DNA of 35,970 nucleotides from Methanothrix sp. (lineage in GTDB: Archaea; Halobacteriota; Methanosarcinia; Methanotrichales; Methanotrichaceae). The translations under genes were made by a program, and so were the position numbers. Numbering within the stretch: position 1 is the stretch's first letter; every line of letters begins with the position of its first letter. Below are positions 17,494 to 29,488 of this stretch, in pieces. Under the pieces are notes generated by a model that was not told the origin of the DNA, did no database searches, and saw nothing but the letters and a program-made list of their open reading frames with translations. Where the stretch lies: assembly GCA_018052825.1 (NCBI GenBank), contig JAGPMN010000014.1, positions 1-35,970 of the forward strand, given 5' to 3'.

Positions 17494-18297
17494 ATGAGCT
17501 CTGCAGAAAAGCTTGAGGGACTGAAGCAGAGCCTCCGCGTGAAGGAGAAGCTGCTCGTATCCTTCTCCGGAGGCGTGGACAGCAGCCTCCTCGCAGCCCT
17601 GGCAGGAGGCGCTCTGGGAGATGGAGCCCTGGCAGTCGTGCTGGCCAGCGAGACCATGCCGGCAAGGGAGGTTGCTTTGGCAGAAAAGCTGGCATCAGAT
17701 CTCGGCCTGCGCTCTCGCACCCTCCGCTTTTCGATACTGCAGAGCGGGGAATTTGCCGCCAATCCCCCCCATCGCTGCTACATCTGCAGGAAGATCACCT
17801 CGGCCCTCTTGCAGAGTATAGCCGATGAGGAGGGCATAGGCTGCATCGCCGACGGAGTGAACCTCTCAGACTACCGGGACTTTCGCCCCGGAATTGCCGC
17901 CAGCGATGAGATGGGCATCTGGCACCCTTTCGTGCAGGCCTGCCTGAGCAAGGAGGACATCCGCTCCATCGCGAAGAGCATAGATCTGCCTGTCTGGAAC
18001 AGGCCCGCCTCCGCCTGTCTGGCCTCCCGAATTCCCTACGGCGAGGCCATCACAGAGGAGAAGCTGAGGATGATAGATGATGCCGAGCAGGGCCTCGCCG
18101 CCCTGGGCTTTGCCCAGATCCGGGTGCGCTGCCACGGCAGCCTGGCCAGAGTCGAGCTGCCTGAGCAGGATATGGCCCGGGCGCTACAAAGCAGGCGGGA
18201 GATCGCAGAGAGGCTCCAGGCGGCTGGATTTGACTATGCTGCCCTTGATCTGGAGGGCTATCGTGTGGGCAGTATGAATGAAGTCCTTAAATCATAA
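17494..18297 (+). CDS. larE: LarE-like ATP-dependent sulfur transferase
   Basis: 267 residues. The PP-loop FSGGVDSS (24-31) activates a substrate by adenylation. HRCYICRK (93-100) and PASACLASRIPYGEAIT are LarE hallmarks; Cys175 corresponds to the Lactobacillus LarE cysteine that is sacrificed as a sulfur donor when the nickel-pincer cofactor is made. larB and larC are not in the window, so the protein could also serve another thiolation. The start is at 17494, with an A/G-rich GGAGAGGGAG upstream. It stands 18 nt before the cysteine desulfurase gene, a natural sulfur source. Confidence 0.87.
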   Translation: MSSAEKLEGLKQSLRVKEKLLVSFSGGVDSSLLAALAGGALGDGALAVVLASETMPAREVALAEKLASDLGLRSRTLRFSILQSGEFAANPPHRCYICRKITSALLQSIADEEGIGCIADGVNLSDYRDFRPGIAASDEMGIWHPFVQACLSKEDIRSIAKSIDLPVWNRPASACLASRIPYGEAITEEKLRMIDDAEQGLAALGFAQIRVRCHGSLARVELPEQDMARALQSRREIAERLQAAGFDYAALDLEGYRVGSMNEVLKS

Positions 18298-18315
18298 GCT
18301 GTCATCTGAGGCATT

Positions 18316-19545
18316 ATGGATGTAGGTCTGGTCAGAGAGCAGTTTCCCATTTTGAAGGATATCATTTACCTGGACAGCGCCTCCACCAGCCTCACGCCGG
18401 AGCCGGTTATCGAGGCGGTTGCCGATTACTACAGAAGCTACAGAGCCAATGTGGGCAGGGGAGTGTACCGCACAGCACAGATTGCAGATCAGCGCTACCG
18501 GGAGGCGCACAGAAAGGCGGCTGCGCTGATAGGCTGTGCAGCGGCAGGCGGGGAAGGGCTGGAGCAGGGCACGGCGGTCTTTACCCGTAACGCCACCGAG
18601 TCCATAAACATGGTTGCCCGCGGCATCAGGTGGAAGAGGGGCGAGCGAATCATCACCACCCTCACCGAGCACCACTCCAATCTCCTGCCCTGGATGAGGC
18701 TCAGGGAGAGCGGCGTTGAGCTGCAGATCGTAAAACCGGATCGCAACGGTCTGCTGGATCTGGGGCAGTTCGAAAGGGCGGCTGCAAAAGGGGCCCGGCT
18801 GGTTGCAGTCAGCCATCTCTCCAATGCCCTGGGAACAGTGCAGCCGGTGGAGGAGATATCAAATATATGCCGTGACTGCGGGGCACCGCTGCTGTTGGAC
18901 GCCGCCCAGTCCGTGCCTCATATGCCCCTCAGCGTGCAGGACATCGGATGCGATTATCTCTGTTTCTCAGGGCACAAGATGCTGGGGCCCACAGGCTCAG
19001 GGGTGCTCTGGATGAGAGGCGGGGATGGAATTGAGCCGCTGCTGGCAGGGGGCGGAATGGTGGAGGATGTGGCGGAGCAGGCCGGATCGTTCTCCATCAA
19101 GCAGGGCTATGAGGGCTATGAGGCCGGCACTCCGGACATCGCCGCGGGAATCGGCCTTGGAGCTGCCATTGACTATCTGCAGCATCTGGGGCTGGAGGCT
19201 ATACACAGCCACGAGCTGGGTCTGACGAAGAGGCTTGTCTGCGGGCTGGAGGATATCAGCGGGGTCACAGTATACGGGCCTCGTGCAGATGAGGGAGGAC
19301 TGGCCAGGGGCGGCGTCGTCTCATTCAACGTAGAGGGCTTTCTGCCCCATGAGGTGGCCCTGATGCTGGATCAGGCCGCAGACATCTCAGTTCGCTCCGG
19401 GCACCACTGCTGCATTCCTCTGATGAGGCATCTTGGGCTGAAGCACGGAACAGTGCGCGCATCCCTCTACCTCTACAATACAGCAGATGAGATCGACAGG
19501 CTGCTGGCGGCAGTCGAGCAGATCGCCGGGATGGCAGGAAGATAG
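18316..19545 (+). CDS. Cysteine desulfurase, SufS/Csd-like
   Basis: 409 residues. A class V aminotransferase-fold enzyme that takes sulfur from cysteine as a persulfide. TEHHSN (117-122) and LDAAQSV contact PLP, Lys221 in CFSGHKMLGP is the PLP lysine, and SVRSGHHCC (358-366) carries the catalytic Cys, here doubled (365, 366). The C-terminal RASLYLYNTADEID block is typical of the SufS branch. A GAGG lies upstream of ATG 18316. It is central to the operon: LarE-like upstream, FdhD and a tRNA thiolase downstream. Some methanogens lack cysteine desulfurase and use sulfide directly, so its presence is informative. Confidence 0.93.
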   Translation: MDVGLVREQFPILKDIIYLDSASTSLTPEPVIEAVADYYRSYRANVGRGVYRTAQIADQRYREAHRKAAALIGCAAAGGEGLEQGTAVFTRNATESINMVARGIRWKRGERIITTLTEHHSNLLPWMRLRESGVELQIVKPDRNGLLDLGQFERAAAKGARLVAVSHLSNALGTVQPVEEISNICRDCGAPLLLDAAQSVPHMPLSVQDIGCDYLCFSGHKMLGPTGSGVLWMRGGDGIEPLLAGGGMVEDVAEQAGSFSIKQGYEGYEAGTPDIAAGIGLGAAIDYLQHLGLEAIHSHELGLTKRLVCGLEDISGVTVYGPRADEGGLARGGVVSFNVEGFLPHEVALMLDQAADISVRSGHHCCIPLMRHLGLKHGTVRASLYLYNTADEIDRLLAAVEQIAGMAGR

Positions 19546-19554
19546 GATGCGGAT

Positions 19555-20313
19555 ATGATTAAAGAGTTAAAATGCTTGAGGCTGGACGGGCCTGCTGTGC
19601 AGGAAGGGCTCTGCCCTGTGGCCGAGGAGGAGCCTCTATCCATATTCGTCAACGGGCGGCACTTTGCCACAGCCATGATAAGCCCCCAGCTCAAGAAGGA
19701 GTTCGTCGTCGGCCATCTCTTCACAGAGAGGATCATCTGCGGGCTGGATGAGATAGAGTCCCTGGAGATCGAGGGCAGTTCCGCCAGGGCCATAGTCTCC
19801 CATCCCATGCGTGCGGCTGTGCCCCGAAGGCCCATTGTGAGCGGCTGCGGAGGGGCTGCCTCATTTCTGGACGAGTCAAAGCTTCCTGTGATCTCCTCAG
19901 ATCTGAATATAGAACGGGAGCAGGCAAAAGAGGCCATGATGGCAATATCCCTTTCCGAAACGCACATCGCCACGGGTGGAGTGCATTCTGTGGGCCTCTT
20001 CGGAGATGCGGGTCCGCTTTGCATCATAGAGGACATCGGAAGGCACAATGCCCTGGACAAGGCCCTGGGATGCATCATGCTCAATTCCAGAGATCATGAC
20101 CTCTCCCGTGTCCATGCCGCATGCACTGGGCGTGTCTCCTCTGATATGGCCCTTAAGTGCGCAGTGGCCGGCATTCCCATCATCGTCTCAAGGGGAGCGA
20201 CCACCAGCCTGGCCATATCGATAGCAGAGAGGGCGGGCATATGCATCATCGGCTTTGTGCGGGGAAGGAGGCTCTCCGTCTACAGCCATTCTGAGAGGCT
20301 GAGGATTGGCTGA
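19555..20313 (+). CDS. fdhD: FdhD-like sulfur carrier for Mo/W enzymes
   Basis: 252 residues, full length. FdhD takes persulfide sulfur from a cysteine desulfurase and passes it to the molybdenum or tungsten bis-PGD cofactor of formate dehydrogenase. Family blocks are present: SGCGGAAS (loop with the sulfur-carrying Cys), EDIGRHNALDKALG, CTGRVSSDMALK and GATTSLAI. E. coli FdhD has two cysteines in its loop; here only one is seen. No formate dehydrogenase is in the window; formylmethanofuran dehydrogenase, which uses the same cofactor, is a candidate client (inference). It begins 10 nt after the desulfurase gene and overlaps the next gene by 8 nt. Confidence 0.93.
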   Translation: MIKELKCLRLDGPAVQEGLCPVAEEEPLSIFVNGRHFATAMISPQLKKEFVVGHLFTERIICGLDEIESLEIEGSSARAIVSHPMRAAVPRRPIVSGCGGAASFLDESKLPVISSDLNIEREQAKEAMMAISLSETHIATGGVHSVGLFGDAGPLCIIEDIGRHNALDKALGCIMLNSRDHDLSRVHAACTGRVSSDMALKCAVAGIPIIVSRGATTSLAISIAERAGICIIGFVRGRRLSVYSHSERLRIG

Positions 20314-21238
20314 AGGGAGCGGATCTTCGCAGGGAGGCGTGCTCTGCAGCTTTTGCAGCCGCAGGGCGGTCCTCTCCCGGAGGAGCTCTGGGCTGCACCT
20401 CTGCCGGGAGCACTTTATGCAGGACTTCGAGAGGCGGGTAGCGGAGACTGTTGAGGTAGGCGGCATGATCGAGGAGGGCGAACGCATAGCTGTGGCCTTG
20501 AGCGGAGGAAAGGACAGCACAGCTCTGCTTCTCAGCCTGCAGGGGATCCTGGATGGAAGGAACGTGGAGCTGGTAGCGGTGACTGTGGATGAGGGAATCG
20601 CCGGCTACAGGGATGACACCATCACGGCCGCCCGGCAGCTCTGCTCCCGCGTCGGAGTCGAGCAGGTTATAGTCTCCTTCCGGGAGGAGTTCGGATACGA
20701 CCTGGACGAGATGGTCGGGGGCAAGAGAGCCGCTCCATGCACCTACTGCGGCGTCTTCCGCAAAAATGCCTTAAACCGCACTGCCAAGCTCCTTCATGCC
20801 GACAGGGTGGCCACCGGCCATAACCTGGACGACGAGGCCCAGACTGTTATGATGAACTATCTCAAGGGCGACTATGAGAGGCTGATGCGCTTTCGCCCGA
20901 GTAGCGCCAGGGCCGGTCTGGTTCCGCGCATCAAGCCGCTGCGGGATATGCCTGAGAAGGAGATCGCCCTCTACTGCATGGTGAGCGGTGCCTTCTTTCC
21001 ATCAAGGGAGTGCCCCTATGCCTACCTCTCCCTGCGGGCGGATGTGAGGGAGATGATGAACCGGCTGGAGTGCCTCTTTCCCGGGGTTAAAAGATCCACT
21101 GTGGATGGATTTGAGAAAATTGTCGGGCAGGCGTCTGGCAGTGGGCCCCGTATGGGCGTATGCCGGCAGTGCGGCGAGCCCTGCGTCGAGGGGCTCTGTA
21201 AGGCCTGCGAGCTGCTGAATGGGCTGAAAAACGGCTGA
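20306..21238 (+). CDS. tRNA 2-thiouridine synthase, TtuA/NcsA/CTU1 type
   Basis: 310 residues. The N-terminal zinc motif is CSFC...HLCREHF. PP-loop ALSGGKDST follows at about residue 68. The three Fe-S cysteines of this family are in place (CTYCG and, later, SRECPYA), as is TGHNLDDEAQT. A second zinc motif, CRQCGEPC...CKAC, closes the protein. The enzyme thiolates uridine in tRNA with ATP and a [4Fe-4S] cluster; whether at U34 or U54 cannot be told. The start is TTG at 20306, seven bases after GAGAGG and overlapping fdhD; a GTG further in is an alternative. Last gene of the sulfur operon, next to its likely sulfur source. Confidence 0.88.
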   Translation: MAEGSGSSQGGVLCSFCSRRAVLSRRSSGLHLCREHFMQDFERRVAETVEVGGMIEEGERIAVALSGGKDSTALLLSLQGILDGRNVELVAVTVDEGIAGYRDDTITAARQLCSRVGVEQVIVSFREEFGYDLDEMVGGKRAAPCTYCGVFRKNALNRTAKLLHADRVATGHNLDDEAQTVMMNYLKGDYERLMRFRPSSARAGLVPRIKPLRDMPEKEIALYCMVSGAFFPSRECPYAYLSLRADVREMMNRLECLFPGVKRSTVDGFEKIVGQASGSGPRMGVCRQCGEPCVEGLCKACELLNGLKNG

Positions 21239-27407: not shown

Positions 27408-27482
27408 AGCCCCGGGCGTGATTCGAACACGCGACCTATTGATTACAAGTCAATCGCTCTGGACCAGCTGAGCTACCGAGGC
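27408..27482 (-). tRNA. tRNA-Thr (anticodon TGT)
   Basis: 75 nt. The acceptor stem GCCTCGG / CCGGGGC pairs with one G-T. The D arm is GCTC...GAGC, the anticodon stem ATTGA / TCAAT encloses CTTGTAA, and the T arm is GCGTG TTCGAAT CACGC. Discriminator base T, as in archaeal tRNA-Thr. It reads ACA codons. No CCA is encoded. Its 5' end is 11 nt after the stop of the degenerate thiolase gene, so it may be co-transcribed with it. Confidence 0.95.
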
Positions 27483-27493
27483 ACCAGGCTTGG

Positions 27494-28264
27494 TTATTTT
27501 GCATCTACACTTAAAGGCTTTGCCCTCAGCCCCTTTTCCACGCCGCGTAGAAGGGAGTAGAAGGTGCCGGGATGGCGGCCCTCAAATCTGCCCAGCAGAT
27601 CCGCCGCCTCCCGGAAGAGATCCCCCCGCCGCCCGGCCCCGGCAGCAGGGTCAAAGCCGAGGCCGTGCTGCAGTGCGTACAGCCTCGCCTCTCTGCGGGG
27701 CACGCGCTGAAGCGGCTTTATCCAGGCCGGATATTTCTGACGGCTCTCGCCGGCCAAAAGGGCGCCTGTATCGCCCCGCAGATAGGAGACAAATATCCTG
27801 AGGGCTTCGTCATCCAGGCATTCGCCTGTTGCTAAAATCCCTGCCCCCATCTCAGCAGCCGCCTGCAAGAGGATCTCGCATCTTCTCTCATAGACGGAAT
27901 CACATGCAATATCGCAGTCCGGCCAGCGCAGCAGCCGGCAGTCCATCTCCAGCCGCTCAGCCACGGCCCGGGCCTGGGAGGCGCTGCAGCAGCCAGCCTC
28001 GCCCATGTCGATGATGACTGCAAATATCTCCATGTCCCTGCGGCGGGAGAAGATGCTTTTCAGTATGTGGGCCAGCGTCGCGCTCTGCCTTCCTCCATCC
28101 AGCCCCACCGCCATGCACGAGCCCCGGGAGAATAGCCCTGTCCTGCGCAGGCTCTCTCTGATCTTGCGGTGCACATCCTGAGAGAGGTGCTCGCCGCACA
28201 GGTGCATTCCAGAGTACCTCTGGTGGATGATGGCAGGCCGGTGGCATTTGTCGCATCTGGTCAT
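27494..28264 (-). CDS. Degenerate TtuA/NcsA-like PP-loop paralogue
   Basis: 256 residues. It aligns by eye with the tRNA thiolase at 20306-21238: the N-terminal zinc motif is kept (CDKC, then HLCGEHL), as are ILATGECLDDEAL and VSYLRGDTGALL. The active parts are not. SGGKDS has become DGGRQS, the CTYCG pair and the third Fe-S cysteine are gone, and the C-terminal zinc ribbon is missing. It therefore cannot be expected to bind the cluster. It may be a partner subunit, as eukaryotic Ctu2/Ncs2 is to Ctu1/Ncs6 (analogy, not shown). The frame is intact, so it is not a pseudogene. It stands between pelota (30 nt upstream) and tRNA-Thr. Confidence 0.75.
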   Translation of the reverse strand: MTRCDKCHRPAIIHQRYSGMHLCGEHLSQDVHRKIRESLRRTGLFSRGSCMAVGLDGGRQSATLAHILKSIFSRRRDMEIFAVIIDMGEAGCCSASQARAVAERLEMDCRLLRWPDCDIACDSVYERRCEILLQAAAEMGAGILATGECLDDEALRIFVSYLRGDTGALLAGESRQKYPAWIKPLQRVPRREARLYALQHGLGFDPAAGAGRRGDLFREAADLLGRFEGRHPGTFYSLLRGVEKGLRAKPLSVDAK

Positions 28265-28294
28265 CTCATGAGCCTCTTCGCTATCATGCCCTTC

Positions 28295-29332
28295 TCAGGC
28301 TATCTTGAAGCGCAGCAGAGCCGCTATCCCCCCAAGTGAGCGGAGCCGCTCTCCCGGCTCGAACTCGGAGCTGAAGATCACCACCTTTCCCCGGGCTGCT
28401 GCCACATCGCGCATGATCTCCTCAGCCGATCCCATTCTCGCAAGCTCGTCTAAGACCAGCAGGCTCTCCACAGCTCCGAAGTTTACGGCAGACTGCACCT
28501 CCTTCATGCCGTAGGCTGCCTTTCCGTCCGTGGCTATCTCCCGGAAGAGGTCTTCTATAAGCCTGGCCTCGCGGGCGATGCGGCTGGATTCCAGGACGCT
28601 TTTGACCGCCCCGCGGCGCAGCACCTCCTGAAATCCGGAGCGGCCGATGGATGATGTGTCGTCCATTGTCATCCTCCCTGCCAGATCGGGGTAGGTGGGG
28701 TCTATAACCTTCTTTAGGTCCTCTTTGGTGAATCCCGGGCCGGCCAGTATGACCTCGGCTCCGCCCCCGGCAGCCTTGTCTACGGCCGCGGCCACGTCAC
28801 GGAGAAATCCGCTCCTCGTGTCTTCGCCGCTGCCCTTGCCGCTGCCCTGGCTGATCTCCGCCGCAGTCTGCACTCCGAACTGGCGGAGGACACCGATGGT
28901 GGCCTCTCCCTCCTCGATCAGGGCGATGACCACCTTTGGACGGAGCGACTCGGCGACGGCCTCGTCTATGCGGGCCAGCATATCCGGCCTCCAGTGGTAC
29001 TTGAGTATGGAAAGGTCTGTGCCCACCTCGATATTGAGGGTGTGATATGATCCCACATCCATACCGCAGGCAATCCTTCCGTGCAGACGCAGCCAGTTGG
29101 AGTACATATGAAACTCGATGTCCTCAACCTTTACCCCCAGGCGCACCGTCTTCTTCTCCATCTTCTCCGGGCGTGCCTTGTCTGCAATGGGCGCCACCTT
29201 CCTCTGGGTCAGTGCGAAGACCAGGTCGCCCCGCGAAATCAGATGCTGCAGATGCCATAGGTCATCAAGGGACTCGGGCAGCAGGGTTATCTCCCCCTCT
29301 TCACCTCGCAGATTCTTCTTCAGGACGCGCAT
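28295..29332 (-). CDS. pelA: Pelota (Dom34 homologue), ribosome rescue factor
   Basis: 345 residues, the full length of archaeal Pelota. With aEF1A and ABCE1 it rescues stalled ribosomes. The N-terminal Sm-like domain starts MRVLKKNLRGEEGEITLLPE and includes GDLVFALTQRK. The middle domain (LAGPGFTKEDL) and C-terminal eL30-like domain (VVIFSSEFEPGERL near the end) follow in order. It lacks the GGQ of release factor eRF1, as expected. AAGGGGG lies about five bases before ATG 29332. It is divergent from the tRNA-Asn gene. Confidence 0.95.
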   Translation of the reverse strand: MRVLKKNLRGEEGEITLLPESLDDLWHLQHLISRGDLVFALTQRKVAPIADKARPEKMEKKTVRLGVKVEDIEFHMYSNWLRLHGRIACGMDVGSYHTLNIEVGTDLSILKYHWRPDMLARIDEAVAESLRPKVVIALIEEGEATIGVLRQFGVQTAAEISQGSGKGSGEDTRSGFLRDVAAAVDKAAGGGAEVILAGPGFTKEDLKKVIDPTYPDLAGRMTMDDTSSIGRSGFQEVLRRGAVKSVLESSRIAREARLIEDLFREIATDGKAAYGMKEVQSAVNFGAVESLLVLDELARMGSAEEIMRDVAAARGKVVIFSSEFEPGERLRSLGGIAALLRFKIA

Positions 29333-29389: not shown

Positions 29390-29478
29390 GCCGCCATAAC
29401 TCAGTTGGTAGAGTGTCTGGCTGTTAATTGCATGGAGCAGCAACCAGAATGTCACAGGTTCGAGCCCTGTTGGCGGCG
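29390..29478 (+). tRNA. tRNA-Asn (anticodon GTT), intron-containing
   Basis: 89 nt, 73 after removing 16. Acceptor GCCGCCA / TGGCGGC is fully paired, discriminator G. The anticodon stem TCTGG / CCAGA encloses CTGTTAA, interrupted by the insert. The T arm is ACAGG TTCGAGC CCTGT. A TATA-like CTTAAAT lies about 27 nt upstream. No CCA is encoded. Confidence 0.93.
29427..29442 (+). other. tRNA-Asn intron, 16 nt
   Basis: ATTGCATGGAGCAGCA between positions 37 and 38 of the tRNA, the standard site for archaeal introns removed by the tRNA splicing endonuclease. The boundary could slip by one or two bases because both flanks carry A. The insert's TTGC and GCAA ends pair, which extends the anticodon stem as in a bulge-helix-bulge. 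Confidence 0.85.
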
Positions 29479-29488
29479 CATTCCTTTT

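Follow-up and report, generated by a model that had tools for sequence, protein, structure and literature searches.

The window analysed here, a stretch of 35,970 nucleotides from Methanothrix sp., encodes two paralogues of the archaeal tRNA U34 thiolase NcsA, one of which (copy A), judged by its sequence, is a genuine, catalytically dead NcsA paralogue under selection, and the other of which (copy B) is an intact NcsA-type thiolase. The prevailing view is that archaea thiolate U34 by means of one self-sufficient NcsA. In two methanogen lineages, the co-occurring paralogues have lost two motif sets reciprocally, as a division of labour within one complex predicts, and it is fairly probable, from these motifs and by analogy, that A and B make up one heteromeric thiolase in which A would act like the eukaryotic Ctu2 and B like Ctu1. 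With confidence slightly better than even, it is further proposed that obligate two-subunit archaeal U34 thiolases evolved several times by reciprocal paralogue loss, replaying the origin of Ctu1/Ctu2, such that one paralogue would keep only the face that holds tRNA or a partner and the other would keep only the chemistry.

Copy A and its locus

Copy A is an open reading frame of 256 aa with an ATG start at 27494-28264 (-), flanked upstream by pelA (Pelota/eRF1-like, 28295-29332 (-)) and downstream by tRNA-Thr(TGT) at 27408-27482 (-), which is the downstream neighbour in every Methanotrichaceae locus checked for it. A sequence-only reading of this DNA had placed a dead thiolase paralogue between pelota and tRNA-Thr, and such a gene is indeed there, although the range given for it, 27482-29332, contains copy A and also takes in pelA. 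Along the protein are arranged a LIM domain (aa 3-28), a linker helix (24-42), a degenerate PP-loop reading DGGRQS (56-61), LDDEA (150-154), an IKPL..IP..E segment (182-192), and RHPGTFYSLLR (230-240). As that reading had also noticed, the N-terminal zinc motif (C4, C7, C23, and H26) and LDDEA are retained, and the C-terminal zinc ribbon is absent. Its statement that the PP-loop is lost applies to copy A itself, where DGGRQS stands for the SGGKDS expected in an intact enzyme, but not to every orthologue; similarly, the Fe-S positions read C/V/G instead of C/C/C, so that the loss of all three cysteines was overstated, since C121 still aligns with an Fe-S cysteine, albeit with its context gone.

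The same state extends across the genus. Among the 20 Methanothrix orthologues of copy A recovered full-length, the frame stays open in all 20, as had been noticed for copy A itself, and 50 columns are invariant; the N-terminal zinc site is present in 20/20 and the C-terminal one in 0/20, the three-cysteine Fe-S set is absent from 20/20, and SGGKDS is kept in 2/20, with PP-loops such as DGGRKS, DGGRQS, and similar. Copy A matches the TtuA LIM domain PF22082 at 46 bits (cut-off 27), falls below the cut-off of the PP-loop family (22.3 vs 27), and reaches 92 bits against the NcsA profile, where copy B reaches 231 bits; the two proteins share 31% identity (BLASTP, E 1e-28). By sequence, its closest solved relative is PDB 6SCY, the U34 thiolase NcsA of Methanococcus maripaludis. 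Structure prediction of copy A alone, a check that had been suggested, returned the NcsA fold (mean pLDDT 88, pTM 0.86), for which 6SCY is again the best Foldseek match (E 1.2e-20, TM 0.87 by query). The LIM zinc domain and HUP core thereby place copy A in the NcsA/TtuA fold family, and the features that mark an active NcsA/TtuA thiolase, namely SGGKDS, three Fe-S cysteines, and both zinc sites, are not present in it as a set.

The 3' end of copy A overlaps a further element, GCAAAGCCTTTAAG, at 27510-27523 (-), which is nearly invariant and lies at a near-fixed distance ahead of tRNA-Thr throughout the family, also beside intact NcsA. The AKPLSxDxK tail that copy A carries here was considered as a conserved C-terminal peptide and ruled out, because its reading frame varies between species and the underlying DNA before tRNA-Thr is conserved in every frame; GCAAAGCCTTTAAG is therefore most likely a promoter element of tRNA-Thr. 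Elsewhere in the locus, a 90 nt tRNA called Asn at 29390-29479 adjoins tRNA-Met, and the tRNA in its place in relatives is called Asn, Leu, Ile, Tyr, or unknown; since the calls differ, it probably has an intron or a long arm misread by ARAGORN.

Origin, age and selective constraint

At the pelA/tRNA-Thr locus of sister genera, NcsA is intact and, as a rule, the sole copy, and in the tree the copy A clade (support 100/99) is nested inside the intact NcsA of Methanotrichaceae (97/86), which together identify copy A, on phylogenetic grounds, as the family's ancestral NcsA, passed on vertically and since deprived of catalysis. The same comparison bears on the earlier suggestion that copy A binds tRNA in connection with ribosome rescue and Pelota. 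Copy A does share a strand with pelA, which it follows at a distance of 30 bases; however, the order pelA-ncsA-tRNA-Thr is old in the family and is common to fully intact NcsA in sister genera, so that conservation of the pelota neighbourhood, which had been proposed as a check, reflects inherited synteny and nothing specific to Pelota, and a rescue role is scarcely credible.

Decayed A together with intact B is also found in many genomes of a second lineage within the phylum, taken as Methanomicrobiales. In the tree, copy B branches apart from the clade that the intact A copies of Methanotrichaceae form; a genus-level duplication giving rise to A and B was rejected (AU test, p 0.00017), and a single clade of all Methanotrichaceae copies was not (p 0.29). 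In a combined tree, Methanothrix B groups with Methanomicrobiales B (95/88) and the A copies of each lineage group with their own intact A, which indicates at least two, and probably more, separate decays of A. In genus g58, a clade uniting intact and decayed A has the higher likelihood, and in genus g71 a single clade of intact and decayed A is not rejected; decayed A in Methanomicrobiales is weakly supported as monophyletic (58/97), its branches being long.

Codon models with kappa fixed at 2.0 gave an omega of 0.284 for copy A, 0.119 for copy B, 0.077 for intact A, and 0.045 for Methanosarcinaceae; forcing omega=1 on copy A over the same topology lowered lnL from -11161.8 to -11494.6, at a cost of 333 units. 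Compared with pelA over the same genome pairs, copy A has about 5 times the dN and 1.5 times the dS, and is thus relaxed yet constrained. The constraint is unevenly distributed: in copy A, omega is 0.26 over LIM and linker and 0.60 over the catalytic part, and in copy B it is 0.34 (LIM and linker singly 0.35-0.38) and 0.16 (single parts 0.08-0.20), giving LIM/catalytic ratios of 0.43 [0.21-0.75] for A and 2.08 [1.31-3.55] for B, whose intervals do not overlap. Within copy A, the LIM, linker, LDDEA, IKPL, and HPGT-Y parts stand at 0.24-0.28, and the Fe-S loop, arginine loop, and third-Cys loop stand at 0.63, 0.76, and 0.86, respectively. Region values for intact A are inflated by saturation at large divergence and were recomputed at small distances.

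An omega of 0.28, the rejection of omega=1, and the presence of both copies in 12/12 Methanothrix genomes that are at least 90% complete argue that copy A is no recent pseudogene, its decay being old, genus-wide, and accompanied by purifying selection. Intact homologues, which the sequence-only reading would have taken as a sign of recent decay, do exist, yet they do not make the decay recent; nor did the high dN/dS that it named as a warning appear. For the same reasons, it is highly improbable that copy A is a pseudogene relic retained solely for the tRNA-Thr promoter in its 3' end. Its accelerated dN relative to pelA and the nearly invariant promoter-like element within it would fit such a relic, but the omega values, the 20 open frames, and the 50 invariant columns already contradict this explanation; moreover, the element covers about 14 bases of 771, and Methanomicrobiales show the same pattern.

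Reciprocal motif loss between the two copies

Copy B, at 20306-21238 (+), carries SGGKDS, CTYC with the third Cys, and the C-terminal zinc ribbon, while its LIM loop has drifted to RRSSG and its HPGTKYS segment reads FPGVKRS. It lies about 6 kb from copy A on the opposite strand, and the two are not co-transcribed in the window. Copy B closes a cluster at 17494-21238 that opens with the gene of LarE, an ATP-dependent sacrificial sulfur transferase (17494-18297 (+); TIGR00268, 301 bits, cut-off 150), and continues with a SufS-type cysteine desulfurase (18316-19545 (+); TIGR01979, 394 bits, below the cut-off of 475), a possible sulfur source beside copy B, and an FdhD/NarQ sulfurtransferase (19555-20313 (+)) whose last 8 bases are shared with the start of copy B. 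In Methanothrix, larE, the sufS-type gene, fdhD, and copy B are clustered; in other genera, larE-sufS(-fdhD) occurs with copy B not directly adjacent.

This setting, together with B branching apart from intact Methanotrichaceae A, could suggest that B took another sulfur-transfer job, with U34 thiolation abandoned or done otherwise and A decaying along with the abandoned modification of its substrate. We consider this improbable, given that B has every catalytic residue of NcsA, with the two zinc sites in place, and that its 231 bits against the NcsA profile fall within the range of intact A copies (228-253); furthermore, an abandoned A should decay throughout, yet its LIM and HPGT-Y parts are invariant.

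What each copy retains is complementary. Counted as distinct tree rows with both lineages pooled, decayed A (n=54) keeps the N-terminal zinc ligands in 54/54, QxYSG in 52/54, and HP..Y in 52/54, with SGGKDS in 2/54 and all Fe-S cysteines in 5/54; copy B (n=60) keeps SGGKDS and the Fe-S cysteines in 60/60, with HP..Y in 0/60 and QxYSG in 7/60 (the motif listing has 42 Methanomicrobiales B rows, in which a few genes stand twice or are fragmentary). Genomes with a single copy keep all motifs. The seven B copies that retain QxYSG belong to Methanotrichaceae, and reciprocity is for this reason partly weaker there. The phylogenetic profile, proposed earlier as a check against the active copy, bears the pairing out, in that decayed A is nearly always accompanied by an intact second copy: in Methanomicrobiales, decayed A occurs 38 times with B and twice without, and intact A 5 times with and 15 times without (Fisher 3e-8); in Methanotrichaceae, the figures are 19 and 5 for decayed A and 3 and 18 for intact A (Fisher 1.8e-5), both tests being uncorrected for kinship. 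Four of the five Methanotrichaceae genomes with decayed A and no B are 56-78% complete.

It is against this pattern that a free-standing role must be weighed, in which copy A would be a tRNA/RNA-binding factor (a chaperone, competitor, or sensor) outside thiolation and B would thiolate alone. Selection on the zinc LIM, linker helix, and core of A in the lack of any catalytic motif would suit such a factor, as would a genome that apparently manages with B alone (G403); such a role leaves unexplained, however, why B lost in two lineages the very signatures that A retained, and why A decay is associated with the presence of B, and we regard it as rather improbable.

Intermediate genomes suggest the order of events. 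Intact A stands alongside copy B in G026, G061, and G067; among these, the B of G026 has lost HP..Y and kept QRYS, and those of G061 and G067 have lost QxYSG and the Y. B is likewise without QxYSG and HP..Y, though A is intact, in G265, G246, G201, G319, and G382. These losses suggest that B became dependent on A first and that the catalysis of A was lost later. As for A itself, the copy in G032 retains the Fe-S cysteines but no PP-loop and little of the ribbon, that of G027 has lost the PP-loop and ribbon, and genus g78 (L362, L363, L364) carries a mini-A of 183 aa from which the PP-loop and Fe-S part are deleted. The mini-A retains QPYSG and HPGTRYA, is under strong purifying selection (omega 0.12-0.15), and is modelled at pLDDT 91 with NcsA as the best fold match. 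This range of forms, from intact A over partly decayed copies down to 183 aa, shows in what order functions can be transferred.

In the heteromeric reading, a second NcsA (copy B) would have been present first, after which A would have lost its PP-loop, [4Fe-4S] site, and C-terminal ribbon, retaining under selection the zinc LIM domain, the linker helix, the Rossmann core, and the C-terminal HPGT-Y helix; B would have retained the whole catalytic apparatus and lost the LIM QxYSG loop and the HPGT-Y signature. As NcsA forms a homodimer, one A and one B may by analogy form a heteromer, in which the LIM/HPGT-Y face of A would hold tRNA or a partner and B would adenylate and thiolate U34; the physical complex, the tRNA role of this face, and U34 as the substrate are what we infer. 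Several findings count against the heteromer. B is present and A was not found in G403 (96% complete, 2 contigs; L322, L353), and decayed A is present and B was not found in G027, G336, and G347 (>90% complete, fragmented); G027 (L018, L187, L191), whose A carries DGGKSS, has larE-sufS-fdhD, and its missing B is either an assembly gap or a real exception. A and B are not adjacent, A has lost the C-terminal domain that contacts tRNA in Ncs2 models (PMC10450187), and of the two eukaryotic subunits, tRNA binding is stated for CTU1 only (PMC4014090). Moreover, the rate covariation of A with B, with neighbours controlled, is unspecific, that with FdhD being higher, and the HPGTKYS segment is changed in some intact NcsA elsewhere (YPGRKFS).

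Comparison with Ctu2 and other known systems

NcsA works as a homodimer, and the catalytic Ctu1 of eukaryotes pairs with Ctu2, which is without the Fe-S cysteines and whose model keeps both zinc sites (PMC10067955); the Ctu2 PP-loop consensus is loosened to SGGXXS (PMC4014090). Copy A resembles Ctu2/Ncs2 in being an NcsA homologue that has no Fe-S cysteines and a degenerate PP-loop but preserves the N-terminal zinc site, and in sharing its genome with intact NcsA (12/12 in the Methanothrix set). It differs in having arisen separately within methanogens, in having lost the C-terminal ribbon and with it the second of the zinc sites retained by Ctu2, and in shrinking to 183 aa in one methanogen genus. 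No match to the CTU2 domain PF10288 was obtained with the 20 copy A sequences (E threshold 1) or in genomes G000, G004, and G012. Copy A as a Ctu2 orthologue was ruled out by this result and by its nesting in Methanotrichaceae NcsA (in a tree without eukaryotic sequences). The earlier proposal of an archaeal Ctu2/Ncs2 counterpart consequently survives as a statement about function, through the pairing with an intact copy and the reciprocal loss in a second order, but not as one about membership, A having arisen from NcsA inside Methanotrichaceae. Such a minimal counterpart would make the role of an inactive thiolase subunit testable, and the QxYSG loop and HPGT-Y helix of NcsA, which lie outside the active site, are indicated as functionally separable from catalysis.

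With M. maripaludis NcsA (PDB 6SCY), copy A shares the fold, LIM domain, core, HPGT-Y helix, and ancestral locus; archaeal NcsA is, however, a self-sufficient homodimer, and copy A is without the PP-loop, Fe-S site, and C-terminal ribbon. The m5U54 thiolase TtuA (PDB 5MKO, 3VRH, 5B4E) matches copy A in its LIM and HUP fold (Foldseek E ~1e-18 to 1e-13), but scores below NcsA by sequence, profile, and fold, and its catalytic residues are missing from copy A. Archaeal KEOPS Pcc2, a paralogue of Pcc1, similarly serves as an additional subunit of a tRNA-modifying complex, though with an unrelated fold and chemistry and with an experimentally shown role (PMC9889334). Among open-licence papers, nothing relevant was found on tRNA thiolation in Methanothrix/Methanosaeta or Methanomicrobiales. 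In other Halobacteriota, a further NcsA/TtuA-like family with SGGKDS and several CxxC pairs (L213-L215, L217-L219, L224-L226) occurs beside NcsA, intact and unrelated to the pairing of A and B.
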